Part shown: piece by piece, positions 8,342 through 21,182 of the stretch | Layout of the letters: every line of letters starts with the position of its first letter | How positions within the stretch are numbered: position 1 is the stretch's first letter | Assembly (NCBI RefSeq): GCF_007830265.1 | Contig: NZ_VLKE01000001.1 | Location: forward strand, 1,736,001-1,800,000 | Origin: Micromonospora olivasterospora | GTDB taxonomy: Bacteria > Actinomycetota > Actinomycetes > Mycobacteriales > Micromonosporaceae | Reading direction: 5' to 3' | DNA: 64,000 nucleotides | Program-made: the position numbers and the translations under genes | The notes under the pieces: model-generated | The model's database searches: none | Seen by the model: only the letters and a program-made list of their open reading frames with translations | Told to the model about the DNA's origin: nothing

Positions 8342-8391
8342 CCTGCTCCCTTGTCGTCACGAGCGGAACTTCACGCCGACGCCTGGCAGCC

Positions 8392-8417
8392 CCCGCCGTC
8401 GCCAAGGCGACGGCGGG
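8392..8417 (-). terminator. Hairpin between small peptide gene and GGDEF-EAL gene
   Basis: A perfect inverted repeat with 12-base arms (CCCGCCGTCGCC and complement) around AA sits 22 bases past the small peptide stop. It could end that transcript or limit read-through into the cyclic-di-GMP gene. Confidence 0.6.
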
Positions 8418-8439
8418 TGTCACATGAATTGCGAAGGAC

Positions 8440-8571
8440 CTAGTGCCACTCGAACTCGAGACTCTTCGAGTCGCCTGCGTCCGGGCCCCCGGCGGCGCCC
8501 AGGGCACCGATCGCAAGGGCGAAGAGCATCAAGGTCATGCCGAGTAGCCGACCCAGCTTTTGAGTTGGCAT
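8440..8571 (-). CDS. Small single-span membrane peptide (43 aa)
   Basis: The peptide starts MPTQKLGRLLGMTLMLF, has one hydrophobic segment of about 20 residues (MLFALAIGALGA) and ends with a charged tail SKSLEFEWH. The second of two in-frame ATGs is chosen because AGGAG stands eight bases before it; the first ATG (8589) overlaps that Shine-Dalgarno. Hairpins lie on both sides (8392-8417 and 8636-8665). The short N-terminus, single span and acidic exported tail resemble small membrane or secreted peptides of actinobacteria, but no family is recognised. It is encoded just upstream of the cyclic-di-GMP protein on the same strand. Confidence 0.6.
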   Translation of the reverse strand: MPTQKLGRLLGMTLMLFALAIGALGAAGGPDAGDSKSLEFEWH

Positions 8572-8635
8572 CTGGGGTGCTCCTGTCATGAAACGGGCAG
8601 CGCGGGGGGCGTGAAGATTCCATGATGGTGCCACA

Positions 8636-8665
8636 CGCGCCGAGGGCAACAAAGCCCTCGGCGCG
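8636..8665 (-). terminator. Strong 12-bp hairpin upstream of the small peptide gene
   Basis: CGCGCCGAGGGC and its perfect complement flank a 6-base loop. On the reverse strand it follows the predicted branched structure at 8688-8784 and precedes the small peptide gene by about 65 bases, so it may act as a terminator or attenuator. No U tract follows. Confidence 0.5.
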
Positions 8666-8687
8666 CCGGCTCAGTCTGGATGGCAGC

Positions 8688-8784
8688 AAGTCCGACCGAT
8701 CGGCAGAACGCCCTGCCTGGCGGGGTGATACCCGCGCAGTCCGCACCGGCCGCACCCCGGTGCAGTTGGCGAACACTCGGACTT
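8688..8784 (-). ncRNA. Possible structured RNA leader (four-way junction fold)
   Basis: An 8-base helix (AAGTCCGA with TCGGACTT, 8688-8695 and 8777-8784) encloses three hairpins: GCACCGG/CCGGTGC (8743-8763), GCGGG/CCCGC (8720-8735) and GGCAG/CTGCC (8702-8717). On the reverse strand this fold is followed by the 12-base hairpin at 8636-8665 and then the small peptide gene, an arrangement like a riboswitch or leader RNA with a terminator. A TTGACG hexamer at 8789-8794 (reverse strand) could be a -35 box. It fits no riboswitch family known to me. In GC-rich DNA five-base stems arise easily; the 8-, 7- and 12-base stems are the support. Confidence 0.35.
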
Positions 8785-9397
8785 TCGGCGTCAATGGTTG
8801 ATTTTTCCTGACTGCCCCCTGAATCAACGAACGGGCCCGGATCGGCCCGGAACGCTCTGCCTCGCTCTGACTACCAGAGCGGCCTTTCCCACCGCTAGCC
8901 ATCTATCGAAGAATTTAACTACGGTGCACCTCCGCCGTCGTCCGGGGAATTCGCGTATACCCCGTCGGGCACCGGAGGGGACGAGATGGCCAAAACGATC
9001 GGCCGGGAAGTGGAGGCGGCCGATCGTCGTACGCGTCACGCATCGACGCCCGGCGAGACTCGGCGCCGGCGGCAGGAGGCCCGCAACGTACCCGGGCGGA
9101 ATCCCGTCGCCTCCAGCCTCCATCCGTGGAGAACCGGCCCGAACTTCAGGCTCTCATCTCGGCTGCCGTTCCGGCCGGACGCGGGAGGCACCCGGACCTC
9201 GTTTGGCCGCCTCGTTACAACCGGGGGCGATCTGCGCCTGAATGCGATGGCGGTCTGCGTGGCCTGCGGCACGACGTGACCGGCTGCGCGACCGAGGGCC
9301 ATCCGACTGCACCGCCGACGGCCGACGTCCACCACCAGAGCCCACCGCCCCGGGACAACTCCGCGACATCGCCCCCGGGCCGTCAGATCATGTATCG
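8785..9397. other. Intergenic stretch without a convincing gene
   Basis: Open frames here (for example 8986-9276 on the plus strand) are rich in Arg and Pro and lack recognisable domains. The only clear structure is an 11-base perfect inverted repeat ACGATCGGCCG (8995-9005) with its complement at 9017-9027. A GGAGGGG run precedes the ATG at 8986, so a small gene cannot be fully excluded. Confidence 0.4.
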
Positions 9398-9919
9398 ATG
9401 ACCAGTGGAGACGCGCTAGCCAGCCTCCGGGAGGCCGCCACCCTGTGGAGCGTCGGTTCCGCCCCCGCGACTGATGTGATCGACGCTGCCTGCGCCTGCC
9501 TGGTCGCAGGCGTAGACAGCCCGACCCTCCGCATCCTGGCCGGCATCTCGCCCACCCCCGGTAGCGAGAGTGACGAGCTGCGCCGCTGGCTGCGAGACGC
9601 ACTGGAGGAACTCTCGTTGGCGTACTACCGGGAAGGAAGCCGGGAGGCCGACGAGGAAGGCCTCCGGATCATGGCCGGACGGCTGCTCGCCAAAAGCATC
9701 ACCGCTCGCGACCTCACGTCCTGGGCATACGGCTTCATCACCTACGACGGAACTCCCCTGGCCCGGGAACTCATCGACCTTGAGAACACGTACGACTACC
9801 TTGACGCCGTCCACGAAGGGCGGCAGTACAGCGATACCGCGGCCACTGATGTCGACACGTGCGTGATCGCCGAAGCACGGCGTCTGCTCGGCGACACCAA
9901 CACAGCCGAGAACGGCTGA
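9398..9919 (+). CDS. Conserved hypothetical protein (173 aa)
   Basis: The open frame begins earlier, but ATG 9398 (MTSGDALASLREAATLW) marks where normal protein composition starts; upstream codons give only Arg/Pro-rich sequence. The protein is acidic, predicted soluble and helical, with no signal peptide or membrane span. It contains the segment LTSWAYGFITYDGTPLAREL and ends in RRLLGDTNTAENG. No catalytic motif is visible. The acidic, small, single-domain character would fit an immunity-type or accessory protein, but this is only an impression. GC is lower than in core genes nearby, in line with the accessory region. Confidence 0.75.
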   Translation: MTSGDALASLREAATLWSVGSAPATDVIDAACACLVAGVDSPTLRILAGISPTPGSESDELRRWLRDALEELSLAYYREGSREADEEGLRIMAGRLLAKSITARDLTSWAYGFITYDGTPLARELIDLENTYDYLDAVHEGRQYSDTAATDVDTCVIAEARRLLGDTNTAENG

Positions 9920-10139
9920 CCGGCGGACTCTCATCCGAGCGCGGCGCCGACTCCTTCCTGCCGGCATCAGTTCCGGAGCACAATTTGCTGAGCTTCCCGC
10001 CGTTCTTCGTCAGCAGGCACGAGTTGGAAACGCACCTCGACGAGAAACCGTCGACAATCAGCCAACTATCGGGCGGCACCGGCCCAGCGGAGGCGACAAG
10101 CAAGCCCGGCTGACTCGCCATCGCCGCCCATTCTGCGGA

Positions 10140-10415
10140 TCAACCCGCCTCTGGGACCTCGACGTCAACCTCCATAATTCGCAAGCGGACGCCGGTGACG
10201 TTCTGCTCCACCATCTGCTTCAACGCCTGAGCGTTTTCCAGGGAGTCCAGCATCACGAGAACATGCATGACCTCCGGATCGGTGTCGTCCGCTCCCCACC
10301 AGCCCCGAACGAACCCCGGACTCTGCCGAGTGACCTCCGCCATGTGCTTGAGCCGGGCCGACCGCTCTCCGGCATCCGTCGAGAGGCCACGCTGCTCTCC
10401 GATCACCATCCACAT
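10140..10415 (-). CDS. Small ABM-like (dimeric alpha/beta barrel) protein
   Basis: A 91-residue protein starting MWMVIGEQRGL. The frame is open 11 codons upstream but this start gives the usual beginning of the fold. The pattern of a first strand, the helix SARLKHMAEVTRQSPGF, a strand around EVMHVLVMLDS, the helix NAQALKQMVEQN and a last strand VRLRIMEVDVEV matches antibiotic biosynthesis monooxygenase-like (ABM) domains, which act as dimers. No clear Shine-Dalgarno is seen, so translation may be leaderless. Enzymatic activity cannot be inferred; many ABM-like proteins have no known role. Confidence 0.65.
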   Translation of the reverse strand: MWMVIGEQRGLSTDAGERSARLKHMAEVTRQSPGFVRGWWGADDTDPEVMHVLVMLDSLENAQALKQMVEQNVTGVRLRIMEVDVEVPEAG

Positions 10416-10789
10416 GCGGCTGACGTTACAGGGGTGGCGCGTTCCCACCGGTCGGTCGTGTCGCCAGCCGGGTCACCGAGCGTCATCACGGTCAGCCGCA
10501 GAGGTCGAGCGGGGTTGATCCCAACGACAGGTGTACGACACAGCCAGCGGGCAGCGAGGCCCATGGGGTTAGCGTTCGTCTCTTCCTAGGCGCGCGAACT
10601 CATCGAGGGAAGCCTTCTTCTGCACCTCGCCGTTCTTCGCGCTGTCGGTGATCAGGACCGATCCGAGCTGCAGGCCGGCCGGATCAGCGAGCCGGAAGGT
10701 CACCGAATGGGAGGTGAAGCTGTTGCTGCTGGCGATGCCTCGCAGTCGAAAAGCCTCGCACCGCCCCGCAGAGCCATCGCTCAACCTCC

Positions 10790-10858
10790 AGCTTGTTAAC
10801 TTGTCTGCCAAATTCAGACTCCAAGGTAAACGGCACTTGGCAGACAAGTCAACAAGCT
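10790..10858. repeat. Large 22-base inverted repeat (operator-like)
   Basis: Arms at 10790-10811 and 10837-10858 match as complements at 21 of 22 positions, around a 25-base centre. Each arm contains ACTTGTCTGCCAA. On the reverse strand the right arm holds TTGACT, and TTACCT follows 17 bases later, so it may be a promoter with a regulator site. The half-site resembles ACTTG/CAAGT elements bound by GntR-type regulators; compare the operator at 16591-16614. Confidence 0.55.
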
Positions 10859-10979
10859 TGGTGGGTGTCTCTTCAGTGAGTCTTAGACGAAGGGGGATGT
10901 GGACCTGCCCGGAAGGTGTCTCCCGGCGTCTACCGCTCTCCGCCGGTACCAAGCCTCTGCACTGGGTAAGTCGGCCGTT

Positions 10980-11417
10980 ATGCCAGGTCATCAGAGATCA
11001 GTAGACGAGGAGCACTCACGTCCGGCGGGGGTCGACGACAGGACCATCGAGGCGCTGGGCGAACTGAGCAAGGCGCTGGAGACAATCCACCGGGTACGCG
11101 GTCACCTGTACTCGGCGCACCAGCTCGTCGGCGGCGCGGATCTGACCCTCGACCGGGTGGTAAAGCTGCTCCGTGAGGCAGGGCACGACGAGGTGGCCGG
11201 CCGGATCGAGCACGAACTGTTAGGGCGCAACGTGCTACCCGGCCGGTGGACGTTCCAGATCGTGGAGGAGTTCGACGACGGCTACTACGCCGCGTTCCAG
11301 GAGATCGAGCGGGACGCGCGGGAGAAGCTAGCCGGTGGTCGCCGGCACATCTACGAGGCCGAGATGAAGCAACGGCGGCGCACCCACGGCATGCCGGGGC
11401 ACGAACCTACGCCGTAG
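10980..11417 (+). CDS. Conserved actinobacterial hypothetical protein (145 aa)
   Basis: ATG 10980 gives MPGHQRSVDEEHSRPAG. The body is helical and charged: TIEALGELSKALETIHRVRG, HQLVGGADLTLDRVVKLLREAG, then GRWTFQIVEEFDDGYYAAF and a basic C-terminus KQRRRTHGMPGHEPTP. No signal peptide or membrane span is present. The sequence feels like a widespread actinobacterial family of unknown function, but I cannot name it. Its stop codon overlaps, on the other strand, the stop of a glycosyltransferase remnant (11407-11483). The inverted repeat at 10790-10858 lies 120 bases upstream and may control it. Confidence 0.75.
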   Translation: MPGHQRSVDEEHSRPAGVDDRTIEALGELSKALETIHRVRGHLYSAHQLVGGADLTLDRVVKLLREAGHDEVAGRIEHELLGRNVLPGRWTFQIVEEFDDGYYAAFQEIERDAREKLAGGRRHIYEAEMKQRRRTHGMPGHEPTP

Positions 11418-11483
11418 CAGTGATCGGCAGTCCGTTGGGAAGCATCGAGGCCAAGGCGTACGCTCTGGCCTCGATGATCTTCA
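11407..11483 (-). pseudogene. 3' remnant of a second family 2 glycosyltransferase gene
   Basis: The reverse strand reads KIIEARAYALASMLPNG and so on to a TAG, matching the last 25 codons of the intact glycosyltransferase at 13671-14447 (RIIEARATALASMIPNG) without gaps. By eye about 16 of 78 bases differ, so it is an old paralogue remnant and not a fresh duplication. Sequence upstream of 11483 no longer matches. The two copies flank the membrane protein and S1 protease genes. Confidence 0.75.
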
Positions 11484-11511
11484 GTGTTGTGCGCCGGGCA
11501 GCGTGGTCGTG

Positions 11512-12159
11512 TCACTCGTTCCAGCGCACACCCCAGTATGCGGTGACCTTCCGGAGGTCTCCGCCGTACCTGCTCGCGCCTTCCCGCATCCAGCCGCAGT
11601 CAATTAGGCGCACCGATACGGAGCGCTGCTGGGGATAGCCGAAGACGATCGCGTGTTCGATGTTCTGCCCGAGCAGACACATCTCGTTCTGTAGTGGAGC
11701 GGTCGGCAGGTTATTCAGGTACGCGGAAAGGTCATCGACATGCTGGGTGAGCTTCCTGCTGGCGTCTAACCGTAGCGGGACCGCACTGTCGTACCGGTAG
11801 GTGCAGAGAAAAGCCTCGGTAGCCCCCGTCGGCACCAGATCAGCTTTGCCGCCGGACGGCGACGAGTGCTCGTCCCAGGCGTCAGGGCAACGAGCAGGAC
11901 CAGCCTCGGTGTTGTCAATGGACGCCGCTTGGACCTGCGCTCGCACCGGATCCTCATTCTCGTACAGCAGAGCGAAGGCCGAGCCGAGGAAGACCACGGC
12001 CAAGACCATCGCGGCTATCGTGACGCGTCGCCGCGTGAGCGGGAGTCCTGCATTGCCGGCCATCTGCGCCACCGAGGACCACCCTTCATCGATTCTTACG
12101 CCATTGACATCATAGGGCACCTCATGGCCTCGACTCGGGGAAGCAGCCACCGGGACCAC
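11512..12159 (-). CDS. Single-span membrane protein with extracytoplasmic Cys domain
   Basis: The longest frame gives 215 residues from GTG 12159; ATG 12063 (MAGNAGLPLTRRRV) is also possible and keeps the membrane anchor. A basic RRR precedes one hydrophobic segment (IAAMVLAVVFLGSAFALL, about residues 48-65). The rest should be outside the cytoplasm and contains four Cys (in RCPDAW, FLCTYR, EMCLLG and IDCGW) that could form two disulfides. It lies 36 bases downstream of the S1 protease gene on the same strand and is probably co-transcribed, so it may be a partner, inhibitor or anchor of that protease. No family recognised. Confidence 0.7.
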   Translation of the reverse strand: MVPVAASPSRGHEVPYDVNGVRIDEGWSSVAQMAGNAGLPLTRRRVTIAAMVLAVVFLGSAFALLYENEDPVRAQVQAASIDNTEAGPARCPDAWDEHSSPSGGKADLVPTGATEAFLCTYRYDSAVPLRLDASRKLTQHVDDLSAYLNNLPTAPLQNEMCLLGQNIEHAIVFGYPQQRSVSVRLIDCGWMREGASRYGGDLRKVTAYWGVRWNE

Positions 12160-12195
12160 CGCTGCTTGATGGCCCCGGTGGGCTTTGAAGGGCCT

Positions 12196-13518
12196 TCAGG
12201 AAGTCGACGAGTTGGTGTTGGGGTAGGCCCCATAGACTCGGATGACGTCCGCCCAGTCCTGGAAGTACATAGTCGTACCCCCGCCGCCGGACACGATGCC
12301 CTTCGCTCGCACGCCGGTGCCGTCGAGCGTGAAGACGGGACCGCCGCTGTCTCCGCCCTGCGCTGGGGTGGAACCGTTCACCTGCGTGCTCTTGATCAGG
12401 CCGTAGATGGTGTAGTCGCAGTCACCGTCGGAGTCGGGCGCATTGCAGCTGACTCGAAGGTCGGTCGAACTCTGCTGCTTGATGCCGCAGACCGTGCCGC
12501 TTTTCATGCCGGACTGGCACACCAACTCGTTCGCCGCCCAGTACCCCCAGCTGCGGACCGCCTTGGTCGTTGATGTGGTGGCCGAGCCGTCAAAGATCAG
12601 ATACCAGCCGGGCGCATTGATCAACAGTAGGTCAGAGCGCCAATCGTCGTCATACACCGGACCCATCTCTTTGAAGGTCCCGCCGTACGTGCCCTGGTAC
12701 GCATCGTCCGGCGGAGTGGCACAGTGCCCAGCGCTCAGGACGTAGCTGCGTCCGCCGGCGTGTACGCCGAATCCTGTCGTGCAGCTCATTCGGTGATCAA
12801 GTCCTCGCCAGGACTCCCAACGACCGCCTCCGTTCCATGGTGAGGTGTCGTTGAGCCGGCTGGCGAGAAGGCTGAGCGGCTCGACTGCGTCCGTCACCTG
12901 TACCGGTACGTCCACCTGGGCCTCCGCGAGGATCTGCTCGACGGAGGCTTCCGAACTTTCGGACTGAATCAGGGCAGCTGGTTCACCATGAGTTACCTCC
13001 GGCCCGCGCGTGATCTGGAGACCGCTGCCATCGGGGGCGTAGCTGATCGACTGGATGTCACTACCGCCGTGCAGGTCAATGGCAGCGTGGATCTTTCTGC
13101 CAGCAGCATGCAACTCTGCCTCGGAATTGGTGGCAGCCTTGACCCTGACGAGACCGAACGCCCGCCCGGCGTCCAGCGCGGCGGACATGTCGGGGGTCAG
13201 TGCCCCCTTCCAGTACAGGGTGAGGCCGCCATCCTCGTACGCCAATCCAGCGAATCCGGAGTCCGGAGTCTGCACCTGGACGTCCCAGATCGCGGTTACC
13301 GCAGGTTGGAGCGCGTTCTGCCACCGCATCTCCGCCAAGAGCGCCGGGTCAAGATTATCGGTGGACTGTGGATCCTCGCTGCTGGCACTGGGGCTGGTCG
13401 GCGCGGCACTGGCCGCCATAGGTCCGGCCAGCAGCCCCGGCACTACAACAAGGGCCGCCATCGCTGCTGCTAGCGGTGCACGTGTCACGGACAGACGAGA
13501 GGGACTGACAGTGGGCAT
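12196..13518 (-). CDS. Secreted S1 family serine protease (streptogrisin/alpha-lytic type)
   Basis: A 440-residue exported trypsin-fold protease. A signal peptide (basic start, then AAAMAALVVVPGLLAGPMAASA) is followed by a long propeptide and a catalytic domain from about residue 235. The triad is visible: His in LSAGHC, Asp in WRSDLLLI, Ser in GGDSGGPV. Paired Cys occur around the His loop (MSCTTG/GHC) and later (LVCQSG, TVCGIK, VSCNAP, DCDY). The start is supported by GAGGAG just upstream. The gene is in the accessory region beside a membrane protein gene. The domain order signal, pro-region, protease is as in actinobacterial S1 enzymes; the substrate is unknown. Confidence 0.9.
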   Translation of the reverse strand: MPTVSPSRLSVTRAPLAAAMAALVVVPGLLAGPMAASAAPTSPSASSEDPQSTDNLDPALLAEMRWQNALQPAVTAIWDVQVQTPDSGFAGLAYEDGGLTLYWKGALTPDMSAALDAGRAFGLVRVKAATNSEAELHAAGRKIHAAIDLHGGSDIQSISYAPDGSGLQITRGPEVTHGEPAALIQSESSEASVEQILAEAQVDVPVQVTDAVEPLSLLASRLNDTSPWNGGGRWESWRGLDHRMSCTTGFGVHAGGRSYVLSAGHCATPPDDAYQGTYGGTFKEMGPVYDDDWRSDLLLINAPGWYLIFDGSATTSTTKAVRSWGYWAANELVCQSGMKSGTVCGIKQQSSTDLRVSCNAPDSDGDCDYTIYGLIKSTQVNGSTPAQGGDSGGPVFTLDGTGVRAKGIVSGGGGTTMYFQDWADVIRVYGAYPNTNSSTS

Positions 13519-13670
13519 TCTGCTCCTCTGAGCTTCGATAAAGTAGGCGCAGAGTATCGGTGCAGCTACTCCAATGATGCCCGTCGTCCCATATCAATCG
13601 ATCACGCTGTTTTCGGGCGAACTACTACAATCCAGTCGTTCATGCCGACGGAAACAGCCGGGGCACGTGG

Positions 13671-14447
13671 CTACGCCGTAGCTCCAAGCGGCAAGCCGTT
13701 CGGGATCATCGAGGCCAGGGCGGTGGCTCTGGCCTCGATGATCCTCATTCGCGCCTGGTACTCGGCCGGTTCACGGTGCGCGGCCTGGCTGGTGACCTGG
13801 CCGGGCCACTTGCGGTAGAGCAGGCCGTACTCCCGGGTGAAGTAGCCCTCGCTGACCGCGTTGGCGGCGAGCAGAAGGCCGGTGTCCTCCGAGGCGGGCA
13901 GGGCCATCCAGCCGCCCAGGGCGAAGACGAGATCCCGCCGCAGGCACAGGGTCGCCGGGTGCACGGATGCGCGGTACTCGTTGGCTTGCCAGAACGACAG
14001 GACCGCGCCGCGGGCGATCACCCCGCCGGCCGGGTCCTTGTCCCAGCCAGCGGTTGACCCGTCGGGCAGCAGGTCGAGTACCCGCGAGGTGGTCCAGCCG
14101 ATCTGCGGGTGTGCGGTGAACGCGGCGATGTCCCGGGCGAGCGCGCCGGGGGTCAGCTGGTCGTCGGCGTCCAGGACCTTTATGAGGTCCCCGGACACCC
14201 GGGACAAGGCCAAGGTGCGAGCCACACCAGGCCCACCGGGACGGCCGATGCCGAGACTGATCCGAGGATCATCGGGCAGCGCGTCGACCAGGGCGCCGGT
14301 CTGCCCGTCCTCCTGGACGAGCCACTGCCAGTCCCACCCGTCGGGCATCTCCTGCTTGAGCAACGACGCGTAAGCGCCAGCGAGGTGCCCGATGCTGGGC
14401 GCGTGGACTGGAGTGATGACCGAGACGATCTGCGTCAAGTTTTCCAC
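13671..14447 (-). CDS. Family 2 glycosyltransferase
   Basis: A 258-residue GT-A fold enzyme beginning VSVITPVHAPSIGHLAGAY. The metal-binding motif region VLDADDQLTPGAL (DxD-like) is at about residues 93-105, and a later EDTGLLLAAN segment matches the acceptor-side ED motif. No membrane span is seen, so it is cytoplasmic or peripheral. GTG 14447 overlaps the stop of the GntR gene by 13 bases, so the two are coupled. The tail matches the remnant at 11407-11483. Donor and acceptor sugars cannot be inferred; being coupled to a GntR gene is unusual for wall or capsule enzymes. Confidence 0.88.
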   Translation of the reverse strand: MENLTQIVSVITPVHAPSIGHLAGAYASLLKQEMPDGWDWQWLVQEDGQTGALVDALPDDPRISLGIGRPGGPGVARTLALSRVSGDLIKVLDADDQLTPGALARDIAAFTAHPQIGWTTSRVLDLLPDGSTAGWDKDPAGGVIARGAVLSFWQANEYRASVHPATLCLRRDLVFALGGWMALPASEDTGLLLAANAVSEGYFTREYGLLYRKWPGQVTSQAAHREPAEYQARMRIIEARATALASMIPNGLPLGATA

Positions 14448-15256
14448 CGTTGGAGTTTGTGGGAGTACACAAGCTCTGTGCGGTCACCCGGCATCACCGC
14501 ATCGGCGACCTCGACGACGCGGCCCGTGGTGTCGACCGAGGTCTTCCGCACGGTGAGCACCGAGACGCCCGGGTCGATGTCCAGCAGCTCGGCCTCATCA
14601 GGTGACGGCGGCCGGGCCCGAACCACGTCGTCGATCCGGTCCAGCTCGATGCCCAGCGTGTGGAGCTGGTGCTGCGTACCGCCGGGCCATGGTTCTTTGC
14701 TCTCGTCGAGCAGGTCCGGGTTCGCAGCCACCAGGTCGTACGGCAGGTAGGAGTACGACAGCGTCAGCGGCGGGTTCTCGTGGCGGGAGGACGTCCAGTA
14801 GACCCGGCGCAGCAGCGGCGTACCCGGCTCGACCTGCAAGGCCGCCGCCATCTCCTCGTCCGCGTCGACGCGGGTGTACTCGGCGTGGAACTTGAGGTCG
14901 TCGACGGTCAGGCCGGTGTCGTGCTCGATGGCGCCGGTCTTCAACCGCTCAGCCTCGTCGAGCAGGACCCGATCTTTCTCCCACTGGTACCGCTCGGTGT
15001 TGCGACGGCGTACCCGCTGGCGGGGTGCCCGCACGTAGGTGCCGCGCCCCTGCTCGGCCCGGACGAGGCCCCATTCCCGAAGCTGCCGGATCGCGTTGCG
15101 CACGCTGGTCCGGGACAGGCCGGACGTGTCGGCCAGCTCGGTTTCGCTCGGCATCAGCGTGCCGGGCGCCAGCTCACCGCTCATGATTTTCGCCCGCAAC
15201 TCCTCCGCGAGTTGCAGGTAGCGTGGGCGCCAGTCCCGGCCATGCACACCGGTCAC
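14435..15256 (-). CDS. GntR family regulator, HutC/UTRA type
   Basis: Starting at GTG 15256 (or GTG 15247, VHGRDWRPRYLQLAEELR) this is a 273-residue regulator. An N-terminal winged helix-turn-helix (PRYLQLAEELRAKIMSG, SETELADTSGLSRTSVRNAI, EQGRGTYV) is followed by a UTRA effector-binding domain that ends with VADAVMPGDRTELVYSHKLQ. The frame is open far upstream but that part is low in conserved sequence. AGGGGG precedes the GTG. A perfect palindrome (15267-15282) lies directly upstream and overlaps the likely promoter/leader, so autoregulation is likely. It is coupled to the glycosyltransferase gene. Confidence 0.88.
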   Translation of the reverse strand: MTGVHGRDWRPRYLQLAEELRAKIMSGELAPGTLMPSETELADTSGLSRTSVRNAIRQLREWGLVRAEQGRGTYVRAPRQRVRRRNTERYQWEKDRVLLDEAERLKTGAIEHDTGLTVDDLKFHAEYTRVDADEEMAAALQVEPGTPLLRRVYWTSSRHENPPLTLSYSYLPYDLVAANPDLLDESKEPWPGGTQHQLHTLGIELDRIDDVVRARPPSPDEAELLDIDPGVSVLTVRKTSVDTTGRVVEVADAVMPGDRTELVYSHKLQRWKT

Positions 15257-15266
15257 CGTACCCCCT

Positions 15267-15282
15267 AGACGTTCCAACGTCT
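15267..15282. promoter_or_regulatory. Palindromic operator of the GntR gene
   Basis: AGACGTTCCAACGTCT is a perfect 7+7 palindrome 11 bases upstream of the GTG start of the adjacent GntR gene. The position and symmetry suit an autoregulatory GntR/HutC operator. Confidence 0.6.
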
Positions 15283-15405
15283 GCCAGGTGGTCCCGCCGG
15301 CGGGCCGCTCGGGCACCGCGGGGACCGTTATCCCTGATCGCGGCGACCGGGTACGACGTGGGCCGGCGGTACGAGGTGCGGCCATGCCCTGACGGCTGTT
15401 GGTGT

Positions 15406-15750
15406 TCACCGGTTCTCTCCCTTCCGTCCGCGCCAACTCGCCGGTGCTCGCATCGCCTGCCGCGCCTCGGTCAGTTCCTCGATGAGCCGGGTCAACTGCG
15501 CTTCCGACAGGAGCACGGCCTGTGTCGCGCCGTACCGGGTGGTGTCGAGCTTGACGGCCAGGTCCCGGCGTGCGAATCGGTCGATGAGCAGTTGGACGCT
15601 GATCCAGCCGGTCCGCTCCCGGCCGATGGTGGCCATGAAGCCGCGGTGCATCGGGTCGTTCGGTCCGCAGCCCCGGCACCACGCCGGGCAACCGGCCGGC
15701 GCAGTCGACGCCGCCTGCCGACTCTCGGCCATGACCTCGCCCTCAGTCAT
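15406..15750 (-). CDS. DUF6907-like small protein
   Basis: A 114-residue protein with CPAWCRGCG near residue 21, a conserved His (MHRGF) and a C-terminal helix (LLSEAQLTRLIEELTEAR). This Cys-Trp-Cys plus His pattern with a closing LSxxQAxxL helix is typical of DUF6907 proteins of actinobacterial accessory regions, whose function is unknown. ATG 15750 overlaps the previous gene by 8 bases; ATG 15732 (MAESRQAAS) is an alternative start with GAGG nearby. It has the same layout as its upstream neighbour, so the two are probably paralogues. Confidence 0.7.
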   Translation of the reverse strand: MTEGEVMAESRQAASTAPAGCPAWCRGCGPNDPMHRGFMATIGRERTGWISVQLLIDRFARRDLAVKLDTTRYGATQAVLLSEAQLTRLIEELTEARQAMRAPASWRGRKGENR

Positions 15751-16075
15751 CGCCGGCCTCGTGGTCGCCGCGCGCTTGCACCAGCAAAGCGCCCAGCCGC
15801 TCGACCAGTTGAGCAGCCTGCGACATGGAAAGCTCGGCCCAGGCGTTCCCGCCGCGGCACGTCGCGTGAACCGCGATCAGGGGCGCCTGGGCGTCGGCAC
15901 CGATGAGGTAGGTGACGACCGTGCCGCTCGTCCGGGTGTCACCGAATCGGTAGATCGGGCCGCGATGGCGGCGGGCCATGTGCGTCATGAGCGGGGGCAC
16001 GAGGTGGCCGCAGCGGTCCGGGGTGCACCAGTCCGGGTGGCTCGTGACCGCGGCCGGTTTGCTCGTCCGCCTCAT
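15743..16075 (-). CDS. DUF6907-like small protein, paralogue
   Basis: A 110-residue protein starting at ATG 16075, which overlaps the upstream stop as ATGA; the longer open frame is rejected for that reason. It carries HPDWCTPDRCGH near the N-terminus and closes with LSMSQAAQLVERLGALL. The Cys/His cluster could bind a metal. The pattern equals that of the next gene, so a tandem duplication is likely. The group lies between two GntR genes, suggesting a regulated accessory operon transcribed 16305 to 13671. Confidence 0.7.
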   Translation of the reverse strand: MRRTSKPAAVTSHPDWCTPDRCGHLVPPLMTHMARRHRGPIYRFGDTRTSGTVVTYLIGADAQAPLIAVHATCRGGNAWAELSMSQAAQLVERLGALLVQARGDHEAGDD

Positions 16076-16305
16076 CGCTGCCACCGCCCACCGTTGCCCC
16101 GGTAGGACTGCGCCAGCGTCATGAGCGGCGCGTACCGCATCGCGGGCAGTTCGCGCGTCGGCGCGGCAGACCACCAGTACGCCGGCGCGACAGAGTTCGT
16201 CGGACGCCGAACCGGCGAAACGCTGCTGCTGGCAGCCCGGGCCGGCTGACGCCTCCGGGACCACCAGGACGAGAACCAGCCGCGCCGACGATGAGAGCCA
16301 GACAT
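16072..16305 (-). CDS. Small basic hypothetical protein (77 aa)
   Basis: ATG 16305 is preceded by GGAGGT and begins MSGSHRRRGWFSSWWSRRR. The protein is rich in Arg, Ser and Trp with no clear hydrophobic span. It is the first gene of the overlapping run 16305-15406. No family recognised. The good ribosome-binding site and the 4-base overlap with the next gene are the main support. Confidence 0.55.
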   Translation of the reverse strand: MSGSHRRRGWFSSWWSRRRQPARAASSSVSPVRRPTNSVAPAYWWSAAPTRELPAMRYAPLMTLAQSYRGNGGRWQR

Positions 16306-16590
16306 CGCACCTCCACAGGTAGGCGGGGACCGGTGGCCAGCCACGGGGGAAGGTGGCCGGCCACCGGCCGGATGAAGGCACGGCGCACCGTCCGACGCAG
16401 ACGGGTCGGGTATCGCCGAGCCAACTTTGTCCGCGCGGCTACCGCAACCGGTCCGACAGGACGCCGCGCGTCAGATGCGGCCAGGGCCGGCATGGCACCA
16501 CCCCTGATACAAGCCGTCACTCTGGCCGCACACCCGGAAACGTACCTACAAGTGGACGTGTTGTCCATACGCCGAAACGGGTCATCTGGT

Positions 16591-16614
16591 TGGCACTTGG
16601 TAACACAAGTGCCA
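16591..16614. promoter_or_regulatory. Palindromic operator upstream of the second GntR gene
   Basis: TGGCACTTG, a 6-base centre, then CAAGTGCCA gives perfect 9-base arms, 14 bases before the GTG of the GntR gene at 16629. The inner ACTTG/CAAGT halves resemble operators of GntR repressors found on actinobacterial plasmids and integrative elements. It may also control the divergent small-gene run. Confidence 0.6.
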
Positions 16615-16628
16615 GGTACGGTGAGCGG

Positions 16629-17066
16629 GTGCCCACCCCGCACTACGGACAGCCCCGCTATCGCGTCATCGCGGACGAACTGAGGAAACGCATCGAGAGC
16701 GGCGCCATCCCGCCCGGAGCCCTCTTGCCAGCCGAAAGCGTGCTCACCGCCGAGTTCCGAGCCAGTCGCGGCACAATCCGGCAGGCCATCGCTGTTCTTC
16801 GAGAAAACGGGTTAGCAACCACCGAACACGGTAGAGGCACTTTCGCAAACGTTTACCCCAGCGACGACACTTCGGGCGGCCGACCCAACGGATTAGAAAC
16901 CAGGCAACGCGAGGTTATTGCCGGTGCGGAGCTTGCAGCTCTGTTCGGCATCGAGGTTGGAACGGCACTAATCGAGCATGAGAGTGTCATGCGGAAGGGA
17001 AAACAAGTAGATACGGTTACCCGAGCCTATCGGCTCCGTCCACCTAGTCAAAATGCTGAGCCTTAG
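16629..17066 (+). CDS. GntR family regulator, short form
   Basis: A 145-residue regulator from GTG 16629 (VPTPHYGQPRYRVIADELR). The winged helix-turn-helix is complete: ADELRKRIESGAIPPG, ESVLTAEFRASRGTIRQAI, ATTEHGRGTF. The C-terminal part is only about 70 residues and holds just the start of a UTRA-like domain (LFGIEVGTALIEHESVM), so the effector domain is shortened by roughly half. The palindrome 16591-16614 immediately upstream suggests autoregulation. Base composition is lower in GC than core genes. It is divergent from the DUF6907-like run and convergent with the nuclease/reverse transcriptase pair. Confidence 0.85.
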   Translation: MPTPHYGQPRYRVIADELRKRIESGAIPPGALLPAESVLTAEFRASRGTIRQAIAVLRENGLATTEHGRGTFANVYPSDDTSGGRPNGLETRQREVIAGAELAALFGIEVGTALIEHESVMRKGKQVDTVTRAYRLRPPSQNAEP

Positions 17067-17157
17067 GGCGCATGCTCAGACTTCATCGTGTCGCCCACCC
17101 GCATCTGCAAATCCTCACGGCAGCCGTGCAAGCAGGGGCCATCCGCCCGTTAGGCGC

Positions 17158-17829
17158 TTACGCGGATACCTGGAAGCCAACCATGGCGTCTACCAGATCG
17201 TTCACGAGCTCTACGCCTGCTCGCCCAGAAACCGCGAACGCGATCTCGTCCAGACTGCTCCTGAAGAGCCTGGCCCGGCGGGGATTGTAAAGACTAATCT
17301 CATCCACCGTCTGGTTGGACGCATACTTCATAGCACAATAAATCAGCACCTGGCGCAAATCAGTTCCTCGGAATGGGCGCGCAACCGTCTTGACCTCAAT
17401 GAGGTGATCCCCATCCGCCATGTCACCAAAAGCCGAACTCACTACCCCGCAGCCAGGAACGGGGTAAAAGTAGACTGGCCCATGCAGCGTTCCCGCAAGC
17501 CTCAACAGATTCTGCTGAATCAGCACAACCTCAAGTCTCTCCGACTCGGCTAGCGGGACATCGCCGAACTGACCACGCGGCAGCAGCGATATCAAATCGC
17601 TAGCAGCCCGTTCCGCGGCTTCGTCGTGTTCAAAGAGGGGCGCGTCGACTGCAGCGCGACGAAAAGCAGTTTCTGCAATCACGGCGCTCCTGCGGCCGTC
17701 GTGATTTAAGCGCACGGGCCTACCAAAAGGTGACTCGTTCTCATTGATCCAGCGAACGACCTGCTCCATCATAGGCGCATGCTGTCGCCAGATAGAGCCT
17801 TGAAGCGAGAATCGGCGAACGGAAATCAT
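17158..17829 (-). CDS. PD-(D/E)XK nuclease-like protein coupled to a reverse transcriptase
   Basis: This 223-residue protein starts at ATG 17829, which overlaps the reverse transcriptase stop as ATGA; ATG 17844 is a longer alternative. No family is recognised as a whole, but the second half reads FGDMADGDHLIEVKT, followed 10-15 residues later by LRQVLIY. That gives Asp136, Glu145, Lys147 and Gln160 in the order of a PD-(D/E)XK nuclease with the usual QxxxY motif. The N-terminal half is helical without clear motifs. The strict coupling to the reverse transcriptase argues that the two act together, most likely in phage defence. The nuclease call rests on motif reading only. GC is visibly low, as in its partner. 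Confidence 0.75.
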   Translation of the reverse strand: MISVRRFSLQGSIWRQHAPMMEQVVRWINENESPFGRPVRLNHDGRRSAVIAETAFRRAAVDAPLFEHDEAAERAASDLISLLPRGQFGDVPLAESERLEVVLIQQNLLRLAGTLHGPVYFYPVPGCGVVSSAFGDMADGDHLIEVKTVARPFRGTDLRQVLIYCAMKYASNQTVDEISLYNPRRARLFRSSLDEIAFAVSGRAGVELVNDLVDAMVGFQVSA

Positions 17830-19445
17830 ACGGGGATCATCCATCCAGGGCTGTTAAAACGATCAGCCGCCCATTTTTGGACAATATCATCGAAAGACCC
17901 AACCTCGGGCTTATTCGAGCGCCGCCAATGGCTTCCTTCATCGCCTAACGCATAGCTCGCAACTCTAAACGCCCGCTTAACCCAGGCGTGATCCGTGCCG
18001 AAGGAATGCTTCCTCTCACTGAGCCAATACCTTACGTTCCACCTCGCCAGTGCAAGCACAATATCACGCTGAATGTTGGGTGCGGACTTCATCCCATATC
18101 CATGGAACGAACTATAGGTTCGGATTAACATCCTTTCATTAAGGCTGTTCCGTCCAGCAGCGAGCACCCTGACGATATAGGCAAGGTTGAGGTCGTTCTT
18201 CGCGATGTAATGCTCCGCCTCTACCAGCCCTCTCACCGTCGCCTGAATCTCATCCACCGCGTCTCGATCGTCGATGTCATCGATACACTGACGAACGGCA
18301 AGCATAACCTGAGGGATGATAGGGGCAAGCGTCTCTACATTCTCCAAAAGCGATATGATCGCTTGGATCCGGCTTTCCTCATCCATATACCTCAAGGCGC
18401 CAACCAGCTTCCTCGTCAGGCTAACATGGATGCGGCCCTTCGTTATCTCGTCTCGCAGCAAGCTCAATACATCGAACTCGGATATCTGGGCCATCATGCG
18501 TTCGTAGTCGTCGACGGCAGTCGTAGAGTACGGGTCGAAGTGCAGCCGGAGTCCGAGGAATTTGCCAGCGCTGGCAGAATCCCCCTGCTGCTGCGACTCC
18601 ATGATGAGTTGATACTCCGCCGACGTCATAATCCGCGTTTTGGCCTTCTGAAGGGAAAACCCCTCGTTTCTCATCAACTTCTCGGAAAGCATTCCGATGC
18701 ATCGGTGGGCTGACTGCAAATCGTTGACGAAGAAGCGATAGTCGTCTGCATATCGGCAGAACTGTCCCGCATGAGCCTCAGCCAGCAGCAGCCTATCTAC
18801 CTGATTAAGGACCAATTCCGACAGCAATCTCGCCGCATTCCCCCCGACCGGAAGCCCATAGGAGGTTCCGCCACTTAGCTTGGTGAGTATCGAGATGATC
18901 TGCTTAGAGCGTTCCTTGCTCGGATCGTCGATATCCCGTAAGGCGTTCTCAAGTCGGTGGTGGTAGATCCGGGAGTAGAAGTCGGCAATATCTACGCTGA
19001 CGACATATGCGTGCCTAAGGGCTAGCTCATTGCATCTATCTTGGAACGACTTCCACCCGTCCAGCTTGAACATGCCTAGGCTGGGATCAGGCTCGTAGCG
19101 GTAGGAGAAAACTGTCTGCTCCTCAGGGCTGATCCGCGAGTCCTCGATGGCAGGAGCGAGTGACTCTACCACTCCGAGGAGGTAGGCGTTCCAGAGGGGA
19201 TCTATTTGGGTGGTCCACCTGTAGCCGGCGTAGCCTACTGGAGCCAAAGATGAATGGCTGGTAATGGGCGAACGCGCCAAACTTCCCTGGAAATCCGCGG
19301 CTATACCCTCCAAAAGATCAACGATTGATTCTCGACAGTCATGGAAGACGTGGTTTTCGAAAGGAAACGGGAAGACATCCGTATCGCCTTTAGTGGCAAC
19401 GTTCGCAACAGCTCGCGCAAGGGCCACGCGCTCAATCAGGGGCAT
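17826..19445 (-). CDS. Reverse transcriptase of the defence-associated (Abi/UG-like) type
   Basis: A 539-residue protein from ATG 19445 (MPLIERVALARAV), chosen over TTG 19481 because GAGG precedes it. The reverse transcriptase core is clear: motif A VSVDIADFYSRIYHHRL (Asp152), motif B GLPVGGNAARLLSELVL, catalytic YADD at 232-235 in FCRYADDYRFF, the KAKTRI lysine and KFLGL. After about residue 310 there is no maturase (X) or endonuclease domain but a long run of helices (DVLSLLRDE, TRKLVGALRYM, IIPQVMLAVRQC) like the alpha-helical repeats of AbiA/AbiK and unknown-group (UG) enzymes. That group mostly defends against phage (DRT systems). One line of the gene (18001-18060) counts 32 G+C of 60, far below neighbours, indicating transfer. 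Subtype not assignable. Confidence 0.9.
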   Translation of the reverse strand: MPLIERVALARAVANVATKGDTDVFPFPFENHVFHDCRESIVDLLEGIAADFQGSLARSPITSHSSLAPVGYAGYRWTTQIDPLWNAYLLGVVESLAPAIEDSRISPEEQTVFSYRYEPDPSLGMFKLDGWKSFQDRCNELALRHAYVVSVDIADFYSRIYHHRLENALRDIDDPSKERSKQIISILTKLSGGTSYGLPVGGNAARLLSELVLNQVDRLLLAEAHAGQFCRYADDYRFFVNDLQSAHRCIGMLSEKLMRNEGFSLQKAKTRIMTSAEYQLIMESQQQGDSASAGKFLGLRLHFDPYSTTAVDDYERMMAQISEFDVLSLLRDEITKGRIHVSLTRKLVGALRYMDEESRIQAIISLLENVETLAPIIPQVMLAVRQCIDDIDDRDAVDEIQATVRGLVEAEHYIAKNDLNLAYIVRVLAAGRNSLNERMLIRTYSSFHGYGMKSAPNIQRDIVLALARWNVRYWLSERKHSFGTDHAWVKRAFRVASYALGDEGSHWRRSNKPEVGSFDDIVQKWAADRFNSPGWMIPV

Positions 19446-19640
19446 TAGAACCTCGAATATCTTTCCCGTCGGACCGACCAAGATAACCCGAGCCCCACGG
19501 GAATATCAAGTGGATATCCGGCAAGCGCAAGGCTTCCCGGGTTCCTTTTGGGAGCTTCGCCTGATAGATCTGTTACGTCCAATAGTCGAGTGACGCCACC
19601 TATAATCTTTTGTGGATCCAGCAGCAGCGAGATTCAGTTA
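19446..19640 (-). promoter_or_regulatory. AT-rich leader of the reverse transcriptase gene
   Basis: On the reverse strand GATTATAGG near 19600 could hold a -10 box, leaving a leader of about 150 bases before the ATG. Several defence reverse transcriptases have a non-coding template RNA beside the gene, so this leader is a place to look for one. No strong fold was found by eye. Confidence 0.25.
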
Positions 19641-19660
19641 CCAAAGGCGCCACACCAGGC

Positions 19661-20145
19661 AGATGACCATGCCCGAACCCCATCCTCTGGACTGCCGAAT
19701 TGCTCTAGTCATGATCAAGGCACCGCGCTTCGCGCGGTGCAGGGGCGGTGAGCCCGGCCGGCGGCAAGCCGCCCCGGCCGCCTCCGGCGCCGGGGCGGTC
19801 AGCCACCGACAGCCGCCGGGTACCCGCCCCGCCCTGACCGAGAGAAGGCCGCGATCACGCCAGGCGGTACGGAAGCCGAACGGGTCGGCCTGGTCGCGGC
19901 TCGGGGCTTCCGGCTGCCGCGCCAGTCCAACCCCGGGACTGGCTTGCCCCCGGCCTGTCTCCCGCAGCCACCGCGGGCCGCCAGGCAAGCCTCTCAGCCG
20001 GCCCGTACGCCCGCGCCAGGCAGCCACCCACCCCGATCCTGGGCAGCGAGCACCAGGCCGTCAGAAGCATGATCGACCCGCCCACGATCTGCCCACAGCG
20101 AGTCGTAGAGGACTGGACCCAGCCGGACTCGGCGAGATCAACGAC
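19661..20145. other. GC-rich non-coding stretch with hairpins
   Basis: No convincing gene is seen. A perfect 9-base hairpin GCACCGCGC/GCGCGGTGC with a TTC loop is at 19720-19740, followed by a dense GGCCGGCGGC/GCCGCC palindromic stretch to about 19800 that repeats GGGGCGGT twice. The Arg-rich open frames on both strands lack ribosome-binding sites. Confidence 0.45.
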
Positions 20146-20185
20146 AACGGCCCCCGATCAGCATTCCTGCTGGTCAGGGGCCGTT
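20146..20185 (-). terminator. Terminator after tRNA-Tyr
   Basis: AACGGCCCC and GGGGCCGTT form the outer arms of an imperfect 40-base hairpin nine bases past the CCA end of tRNA-Tyr, followed on the reverse strand by GTCGTTG. Confidence 0.65.
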
Positions 20186-20193
20186 CTCGCACC

Positions 20194-20277
20194 TGGTGGC
20201 GGGTAGAGGATTCGAACCTCTGTAGCTTTCGCGACGGATTTACAGTCCGCTCCCATTGGCCGCTCGGGCAACCCGCC
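20194..20277 (-). tRNA. tRNA-Tyr (anticodon GTA) with encoded CCA
   Basis: A class II tRNA with a long variable arm. The acceptor GGCGGGT pairs with ACCCGCC, the anticodon loop is CTGTAAA, the T arm has GGTTCGAATCC, and CCA is encoded at 20194-20196. The accessory region 8.8-20.1 kb lies directly beyond its 3' end, the usual side for island insertion. Confidence 0.95.
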
Positions 20278-20426
20278 AGGGCGTCGCCGCCTCGGCGTAC
20301 CGCGGCAGCGGAGCCAAGGATAGCGGCTGCTCCCCGGCCCCGCGCAACCGGGTACCGTCAGAGGGTCGTACCGCTGGTCAGTGGACGACGCGTACGTGCA
20401 GACCGCCGGACAGCAGGAGCATGAGT

Positions 20427-20921
20427 ATGGCAGCGAACCCGTCGTTCGACATCGTGAGCAAGGTCGACCGCCAGGAGGTCGACAACGCCCTCCGCCAGGC
20501 GGAGAAGGAGCTCGCGACGCGGTTCGACTTCCGGGGGACCGGCGCGGAGATCTCCTGGTCGGGCGAGGAGGCGATCAGCCTCCAGGCGGAGACCGAGGAG
20601 CGGGTCCGGGCCGCCCTGGACGTCTTCAAGGAGAAGCTGGTCAAGCGGAACATCTCGCTCAAGTCGCTGGACGCCGGTGACGCCCGTCCCTCGGGCAAGG
20701 TGTTCAAGATCGATGCCAAGGTGATCCAGGGCATCGACTCGGACAAGGCCAAGGCGATCAGCAAGAAGATCCGTGAGGAGGGGCCGAAGGGCGTCCAGGC
20801 CCAGATCCAGGGCGACCAGCTCCGGGTCACGGGCAAGAAGAAGGACGACCTCCAGGCCGTCATCGCCCTGCTGAAGGGCGAGGACTTCGGCGTCGCCCTT
20901 CAGTTCACCAACTACAGGTAG
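20427..20921 (+). CDS. yajQ: YajQ family nucleotide-binding protein
   Basis: A 164-residue YajQ/UPF0234 protein. Members bind nucleotides, in some species cyclic-di-GMP, and form two ferredoxin-like domains. Conserved segments include [26 protein letters not shown] and the end [11 protein letters not shown]. The second ATG (20427) is chosen because AGGAG stands seven bases before it and one base before the first ATG. The last codons coincide with a 15-base direct repeat (20901-20915), so the stop codon may have been supplied by an inserted element. A link with the cyclic-di-GMP enzyme at 5789-8341 is possible but not shown. Confidence 0.95.
20901..20915 (+). repeat. Candidate attL, 15-base direct repeat, copy 1
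   Basis: CAGTTCACCAACTAC within the last codons of yajQ, identical to 23599-23613. Confidence 0.55.
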
Positions 20922-21182
20922 GGCGGCCTGGGCCGGCCCGCTCAGCGGGCTGGCCACGCCTTGTTACCTGGGCATACGTCGTCACCAGTGGTCGTCGTTG
21001 GTTGCTCGCGATCGGCCTCCGACGGCCTGGTGACGGCCTGGGCGTGGCCCTCGTCGACCCCTTGCCCCCCAGCCAACGATCCGAGCAAGCCGACCTGCGA
21101 TAACAAGCGGCCACGCTGGCGCTTCCGTCCACCGTGGTCCATCGGCGTCCTGCCTTGTTCGTCACGGTCGTCACTCAGTTAG

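Follow-up and report, generated by a model that had tools for sequence, protein, structure and literature searches.

The window analysed here is a 64,000-nucleotide stretch of the Micromonospora olivasterospora genome (contig NZ_VLKE01000001.1). On its minus strand lies a two-gene unit, a reverse transcriptase (RT) followed by a PD-(D/E)XK nuclease, which is almost certainly an anti-phage defence unit of defence-associated reverse transcriptase (DRT) type 8. The data directly support the families of both proteins, the overlap and co-inheritance of their genes, the invariance of the active sites and the two predicted folds. Comparison with relatives suggests that the second gene encodes a built-in DNA exonuclease acting on the DNA made by the RT. 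The mechanism we favour, tentatively and with rather less than even confidence, is that a class 1 RT makes untemplated DNA, which its own exonuclease erases until infection.

Families and predicted structures of the two proteins

The RT open reading frame (17826–19445, minus strand) encodes 539 residues from its ATG; an upstream TTG at 19481 would give 551 residues, and the majority of 20 aligned homologues begin at the ATG. The nuclease reading frame (17158–17829, minus strand) encodes 223 residues, or 228 from an alternative start at 17844. An ATGA at 17826–17829 (minus strand) holds both the RT stop and the nuclease start. The first-pass annotation, made from the letters of this DNA, had described exactly such a pair, a YADD-bearing RT overlapping a partner with a D...ExK...QxxxY motif, both low in GC; the pair is real, and its GC contents are 0.541 and 0.570, respectively, compared with 0.722 for the window.

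The RT matched the PADLOC Drt8 model at 8.4e-155, the next family being RT_UG21 (5.1e-29), and Pfam RVT_1 with an E value of 4.9e-15. The partner matched RTasPDDEXK, the PADLOC model of RT-associated PD-(D/E)XK proteins, at 1.1e-53. No second RT of the Drt8 kind was found in the own genome. The Drt8 match bears out the defence-type (UG/Abi) RT proposed earlier. A placement among group II intron or retron enzymes, which would have spoken against that proposal, was not found on the basis of NCBIfam model scores: the group II intron RT/maturase model TIGR04416 reached 59.9 bits against a cut-off of 300, and retron_St85, retron_Ec67 and Retron_TIR reached 45.8, 24.6 and 35.4 bits against cut-offs of 235, 450 and 600, respectively. 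Both origins were rejected on these scores and on the structural match, which runs end to end with class 1 RTs. DRT8 was reportedly described by Mestre et al. in 2022, and the label UG7 corresponds to DRT8. The suggestion that the pair is an undescribed variant had to be given up, because an RT with a PD-(D/E)XK domain is DRT type 8 both in PADLOC and in print, in the available passages of PMC12596737.

The predicted RT model (mean predicted local distance difference test, pLDDT, 86.5) consists of an RT domain (about residues 1–290) joined to an all-helical, alphaRep-like C-terminal repeat (residues ~310–530; 17856–18518, minus strand), which was placed from the secondary structure of the model and the alignment with class 1 RTs. 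Such a C-terminal helical-repeat fusion is the trait by which class 1 UG/Abi RTs are defined in the accessible text of PMC13174585. The model aligned end to end with DRT6, DRT4, AbiA, Abi-P2, and AbiK, whereas its alignment with DRT2, DRT9, and retron RTs was mainly over the RT domain. The catalytic YADD motif occupies residues 232–235 (18741–18752, minus strand), and its D234 and D235 were kept in 90/90 RTs of the comparison described below.

The nuclease model was predicted with high scores (pLDDT 91.4, predicted template modelling score 0.88). Its fold resembles RecB/Cas4/MGME1-type DNA exonucleases, and the closest Foldseek match was ACE1, an Argonaute-associated protein. Together with the RTasPDDEXK match, this agrees with the PD-(D/E)XK fold that had been supposed for the partner. 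The active-site residues D136, E145, K147, Q160, and Y164 (D136...E145-x-K147...Q160xxxY164; 17338–17424, minus strand) were invariant in all 81 nucleases compared. Scans of the nuclease gave no significant Pfam family and no NCBIfam match, and a PDB search by its sequence returned nothing meaningful. Cas4 proper was considered and rejected, as its four-cysteine iron-sulfur set is not present in the window nuclease. The latter has two cysteines, of which C127 is Cys in 56/81 nucleases, and the second lies outside the nearly invariant columns.

Co-occurrence of the RT and the nuclease

A search across species, with one genome for each, found 89 RT loci, and the best 80 of the 89 were analysed. 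A homologue of the partner lay directly downstream of the RT on the same strand in 71 of these 80. When the window, two loci of the same family, one of Escherichia coli and six of viral contigs were added, the nuclease stood beside the RT in 81 of 90 loci (85 of the 90 RT sequences being distinct), and the nuclease-bearing loci span many phyla; the two genes thus do co-occur in other genomes. A four-nucleotide NTGA overlap, with ATG, GTG or TTG as the start, was observed in 67 of the 71 genome loci. The exceptions were two one-base overlaps, L053 (9 bases further on), and the in-frame arrangement of L070, where the RT ends in TAG and the nuclease ATG follows in the same frame (L070:7575–7579), one stop codon short of a fusion. 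All nine further loci from the family, E. coli and viral contigs showed ATGA, three of them being near-copies of one another. The same overlap was therefore present in 77 of the 81 nuclease-bearing loci, in line with the translational coupling claimed at first pass. Nuclease starts were inferred as the codon nearest the RT stop, while the overlap itself is read in the sequence.

The distances among RTs and those among nucleases were correlated across 75 loci (r = 0.874; five identical copies were omitted, as was L032 with its split RT), and none of 999 permutations gave a value as high. The main message of this correlation is that the two genes are inherited together. As a side observation, L026 and L071, one a Euryarchaeota and the other a Bacteroidales metagenome-assembled genome, shared 86% DNA identity over 1828 bases, which indicates either that the DNA passed between domains recently or that one contig was binned wrongly.

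The nine loci with no nuclease (L072–L080, 27–32% identity; the solo group) came from Cyanobacteriota, Bacteroidota, and Pseudomonadota. In the RT tree, a single branch with a Shimodaira–Hasegawa-like approximate likelihood ratio support of 99 parted them from the 81 nuclease-bearing RTs; L072 formed a very long branch and its placement is unsure. All five solo RTs scanned were called Drt8 by PADLOC (4e-133 to 2e-164), and eight of nine carried [YF]NDD rather than [YF][AV]DD. No partner common to the solo group was found, save for neighbours that the two Nostoc loci share and a single distant match elsewhere; downstream DNA could hardly be judged in L080, which ends just past the RT, and in L077, with ~740 bases past it. 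The two Nostoc loci (L074 and L075) encode a ~456-residue protein (97% identical) directly upstream of the RT. The five scans indicate that the Drt8 model of PADLOC-DB 2.0.0 covers two groups, only one with the nuclease, and two kinds of system may be lumped together when 'Drt8' is called from the RT alone.

Possible functions of the nuclease

DRT4 and Abi enzymes synthesise untemplated DNA, and exonucleases are known to act on the products of related systems. RecBCD clears the DRT3 DNA, a removal that phage Gam relieves; in DRT9, ExoI removes the DNA and gp58 outcompetes ExoI; in DRT4, phage ORF55 protects the DNA ends. The RT of the window, as a class 1 UG enzyme like AbiK, DRT4, and DRT6, would polymerise DNA without a nucleic-acid template, and its product would probably be protein-bound single strands. 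The coupled nuclease, a putative exonuclease of RecB/Cas4 type, would take this RT-made DNA as its substrate and erase it in the uninfected cell. If a phage protein capped DNA ends or inhibited exonucleases, the DNA would build up and halt either the cell or the replication of the phage, as abortive infection. The DRT8 operon would then itself supply an eraser for which DRT3 and DRT9 depend on the host. The nuclease as eraser is the simplest reading of a DRT4/DRT6-like polymerase encoded with its own exonuclease-like protein. We infer the untemplated nature of the product, its degradation by the nuclease, and both the trigger and the outcome.

With a little more reserve, we also consider a wider form of this proposal, a self-contained pair of DNA toxin and eraser. 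Its untemplated product would be destroyed continuously, any phage product acting against exonucleases or capping DNA ends would trigger abortive infection, and the solo sisters would rely on host nucleases. With its own eraser, the RT would no longer depend on the host nuclease repertoire, and this independence, if true, could explain the spread of the pair across Actinomycetota, Bacteroidota, Bacillota, Pseudomonadota, and others.

The nuclease might instead be an effector, with the RT or its DNA product sensing infection and licensing the cutting of phage or host DNA. Licensing by the DNA product was the idea of the first-pass annotation, and we regard it as slightly less likely than the eraser, the two being close in probability. 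RT defence systems commonly have effector partners, and retrons controlling effectors offer a parallel. Another is DRT1, in which, according to the portions available of PMC13275509, DNA synthesis activates the nitrilase domain and defence needs both active sites. The PD-(D/E)XK active site that is invariant in 81/81 nucleases and the Argonaute-associated ACE1 as closest fold match are also in favour of an effector. However, the best fold neighbours of the nuclease are mostly end-dependent DNA exonucleases with established activities, not restriction-like endonucleases.

Natural breakages bear on the same choice. At least four loci have a broken RT and an open nuclease gene (L032 and the E. 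coli loci L131, L132, and L133), and at least one has a broken nuclease and an intact RT (L063). The three broken E. coli RTs, from five loci opened, were found among 60 of the 105 RT matches and 60 of the 106 nuclease matches; they show an IS3 insertion or a frameshift/split, and the open nucleases carry the same protein accession. In L063 (Brenneria; 7578–8177), an in-frame stop follows ~196 nuclease codons, with the active-site motifs kept. Because four loci retain an open nuclease after RT breakage, a nuclease that is toxic unless restrained by the RT seems unlikely from these sequences; this speaks against an RT-held toxic effector, not against one that is switched on.

Several points weigh against the eraser. 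The conserved nuclease active site is equally expected of an effector. In L063, an RT is tolerated with no full nuclease, which speaks against an eraser that is essential, provided that the shortened nuclease does not work and the draft sequence is right. Solo Drt8-like RTs exist with no nuclease, although host nucleases may serve there. The broken-RT loci also lose the translational coupling, and nuclease expression is perhaps lost with it. Four breakages against one are too few to reveal a bias or to separate eraser from effector, the more so as the RT gene is more than twice as long as the nuclease gene.

A nuclease that matures the product, by trimming the RT-made DNA or releasing it from the protein primer so that the trimmed DNA is the active species, appears improbable. 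RecB/Cas4-type nucleases do process DNA ends, and the strict coupling and co-inheritance suggest a common substrate. Against it, AbiK has to our knowledge no such partner. The class 1 relatives DRT4 and DRT6 are likewise described with none in the available part of PMC13213688.

Genomic setting and comparison with known systems

A tRNA-Tyr (GTA) gene (20194–20277, minus strand) starts ~750 bases upstream of the RT start. We compared 12 same-genus stretches, fetched from 61 genomes searched with the tRNA region (own genome included). DNA was conserved from ~20140 upwards and mostly variable below; the part at ~20170–20915 was kept in all 12 stretches. On the other side, the DNA up to 8149–8795 was kept in 11 of 12, the stretch fetched for L105 not reaching that side, and the bounding gene at 5789–8341 is GGDEF/EAL-like as read by eye. 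Between these edges, the length and most of the content vary, with partial matches in some stretches, for example L115 (10964–11404 and 15441–16332) and L104 (from 19852). From the conserved edges and the differing DNA between them, a tRNA-flanked variable region (8300–20120) holds the DRT8 unit, as the accessory region beside a tRNA-Tyr noted at first pass. Extra copies of the 3' part of the tRNA-Tyr were present within the variable region of L108, L109, and L110, and no second copy was found in the window. The region also encodes two GntR-type regulators, a family 2 glycosyltransferase and a trypsin-like protease, and its genes are perhaps the remains of an integrative element.

Drt8-kind RTs (E 1e-60 or better) are rare nearby, with matches in 3/354 family genomes and 3/44 genera, and the own genome was the sole match in samples of 397 order and 396 phylum genomes. 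One family match (L083) has an RT identical to that of Catellatospora methionotrophica (Micromonosporaceae, L001). Of 5426 complete E. coli genomes, 105 carry DRT8; each of the five loci inspected (L130–L134) has it in a P4-like satellite, adjoining the integrase. The tRNA-side region of the window and these satellite loci, beside an integrase and the P4 end, would fit an accessory module serving the replication or repair of a mobile element and not defence. We consider this very unlikely. P4-like satellites are known to carry defence genes, and the available passages of two 2026 reviews (PMC13314766, PMC13213688) credit DRT8, at family level, with phage resistance.

The flanks of 72 loci (the 71 and the window), taken to 700 bases per side or less at contig ends, were compared by blastn, and no element common to a larger group was found. 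Upstream, four pairs gave five matches, including 81 bases beside the RT start (L038/L039) and 69 and 87 bases (L066/L068); downstream, five pairs matched, the longest over 333 bases (L066/L068). In simulations, a 150-base element was detected in 30/30 trials at 70% identity and 24/30 at 65%, and an 80-base element at 70% identity in 23/30. A DRT2 control (seven loci, 31–56% protein identity to L136) gave no common upstream element either; since this control came out without its own RNA, the test is blind at such divergence, and its negative is valid only for closer pairs (~72–86% nucleotide identity). Rfam over 8300–21000 reported tRNA only and no known retron RNA. Two E. coli loci that are 84% alike shared a block of both genes that extends 13 bases upstream and 40 downstream of them; the integrase gene overlaps the RT start in one locus, and ~310 further bases separate the two in the other. 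Their further downstream match falls in the P4 satellite end, part of it matching the phage P4 record over its final 162 bases (98.8%), and P4-end-related DNA occurs in 1072/5426 E. coli genomes compared with 105 with DRT8. Over the final 15 codons of the RT, codon-level conservation was elevated in three of five groups (ratios 1.26, 1.17, and 1.48; the others 0.87 and 1.03), as expected of the adjoining overlapping start; elsewhere in both genes, no position stood out in common.

In the titles, abstract openings and passages of the literature searched, no mechanism for DRT8 was evident, and the same reviews (PMC13213688, PMC13314766), in their accessible passages, give it as not established or unresolved. 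Our comparison offers a concrete, testable one, in which a class 1 polymerase architecture is combined with a dedicated exonuclease-like protein; it adjoins the recent findings that exonucleases decide the toxicity of DRT3, DRT4, and DRT9 products. New here are the co-occurrence and overlap counts, the nuclease fold and invariance, the RT class alignment and, with limited sensitivity, the flanking-RNA negative.

The Micromonospora unit is a further member of a type already known and not a new system. Both proteins match the DRT8 models of PADLOC over nearly full length, the gene order and overlap are those of the relatives, and the window represents an actinobacterial branch (35–45% protein identity to non-actinobacterial nuclease-bearing RTs) with no difference in kind. 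The solo Drt8-like RTs share the PADLOC match with the DRT8 RT and differ by having no nuclease and mostly [YF]NDD. AbiK, Abi-P2, and AbiA resemble the DRT8 RT in overall architecture (403–469 residues aligned), whereas sequence similarity to the window RT is detectable in the RT core only; we know of no obligatory nuclease gene in these three. The DRT8 nuclease resembles Cas4/RecB/MGME1-type exonucleases and ACE1 in its predicted fold and in its PD-(D/E)XK motifs (D, ExK, and QxxxY), but it has no counterpart to the cysteine set of Cas4 proper and no helicase domain. DRT4 and DRT6 are single-gene systems in the available part of PMC13213688, whereas DRT8 co-encodes a dedicated nuclease. DRT1 is, like DRT8, an RT with an associated enzymatic activity; its nitrilase is fused to the RT, whereas DRT8 has a separate exonuclease-like protein.
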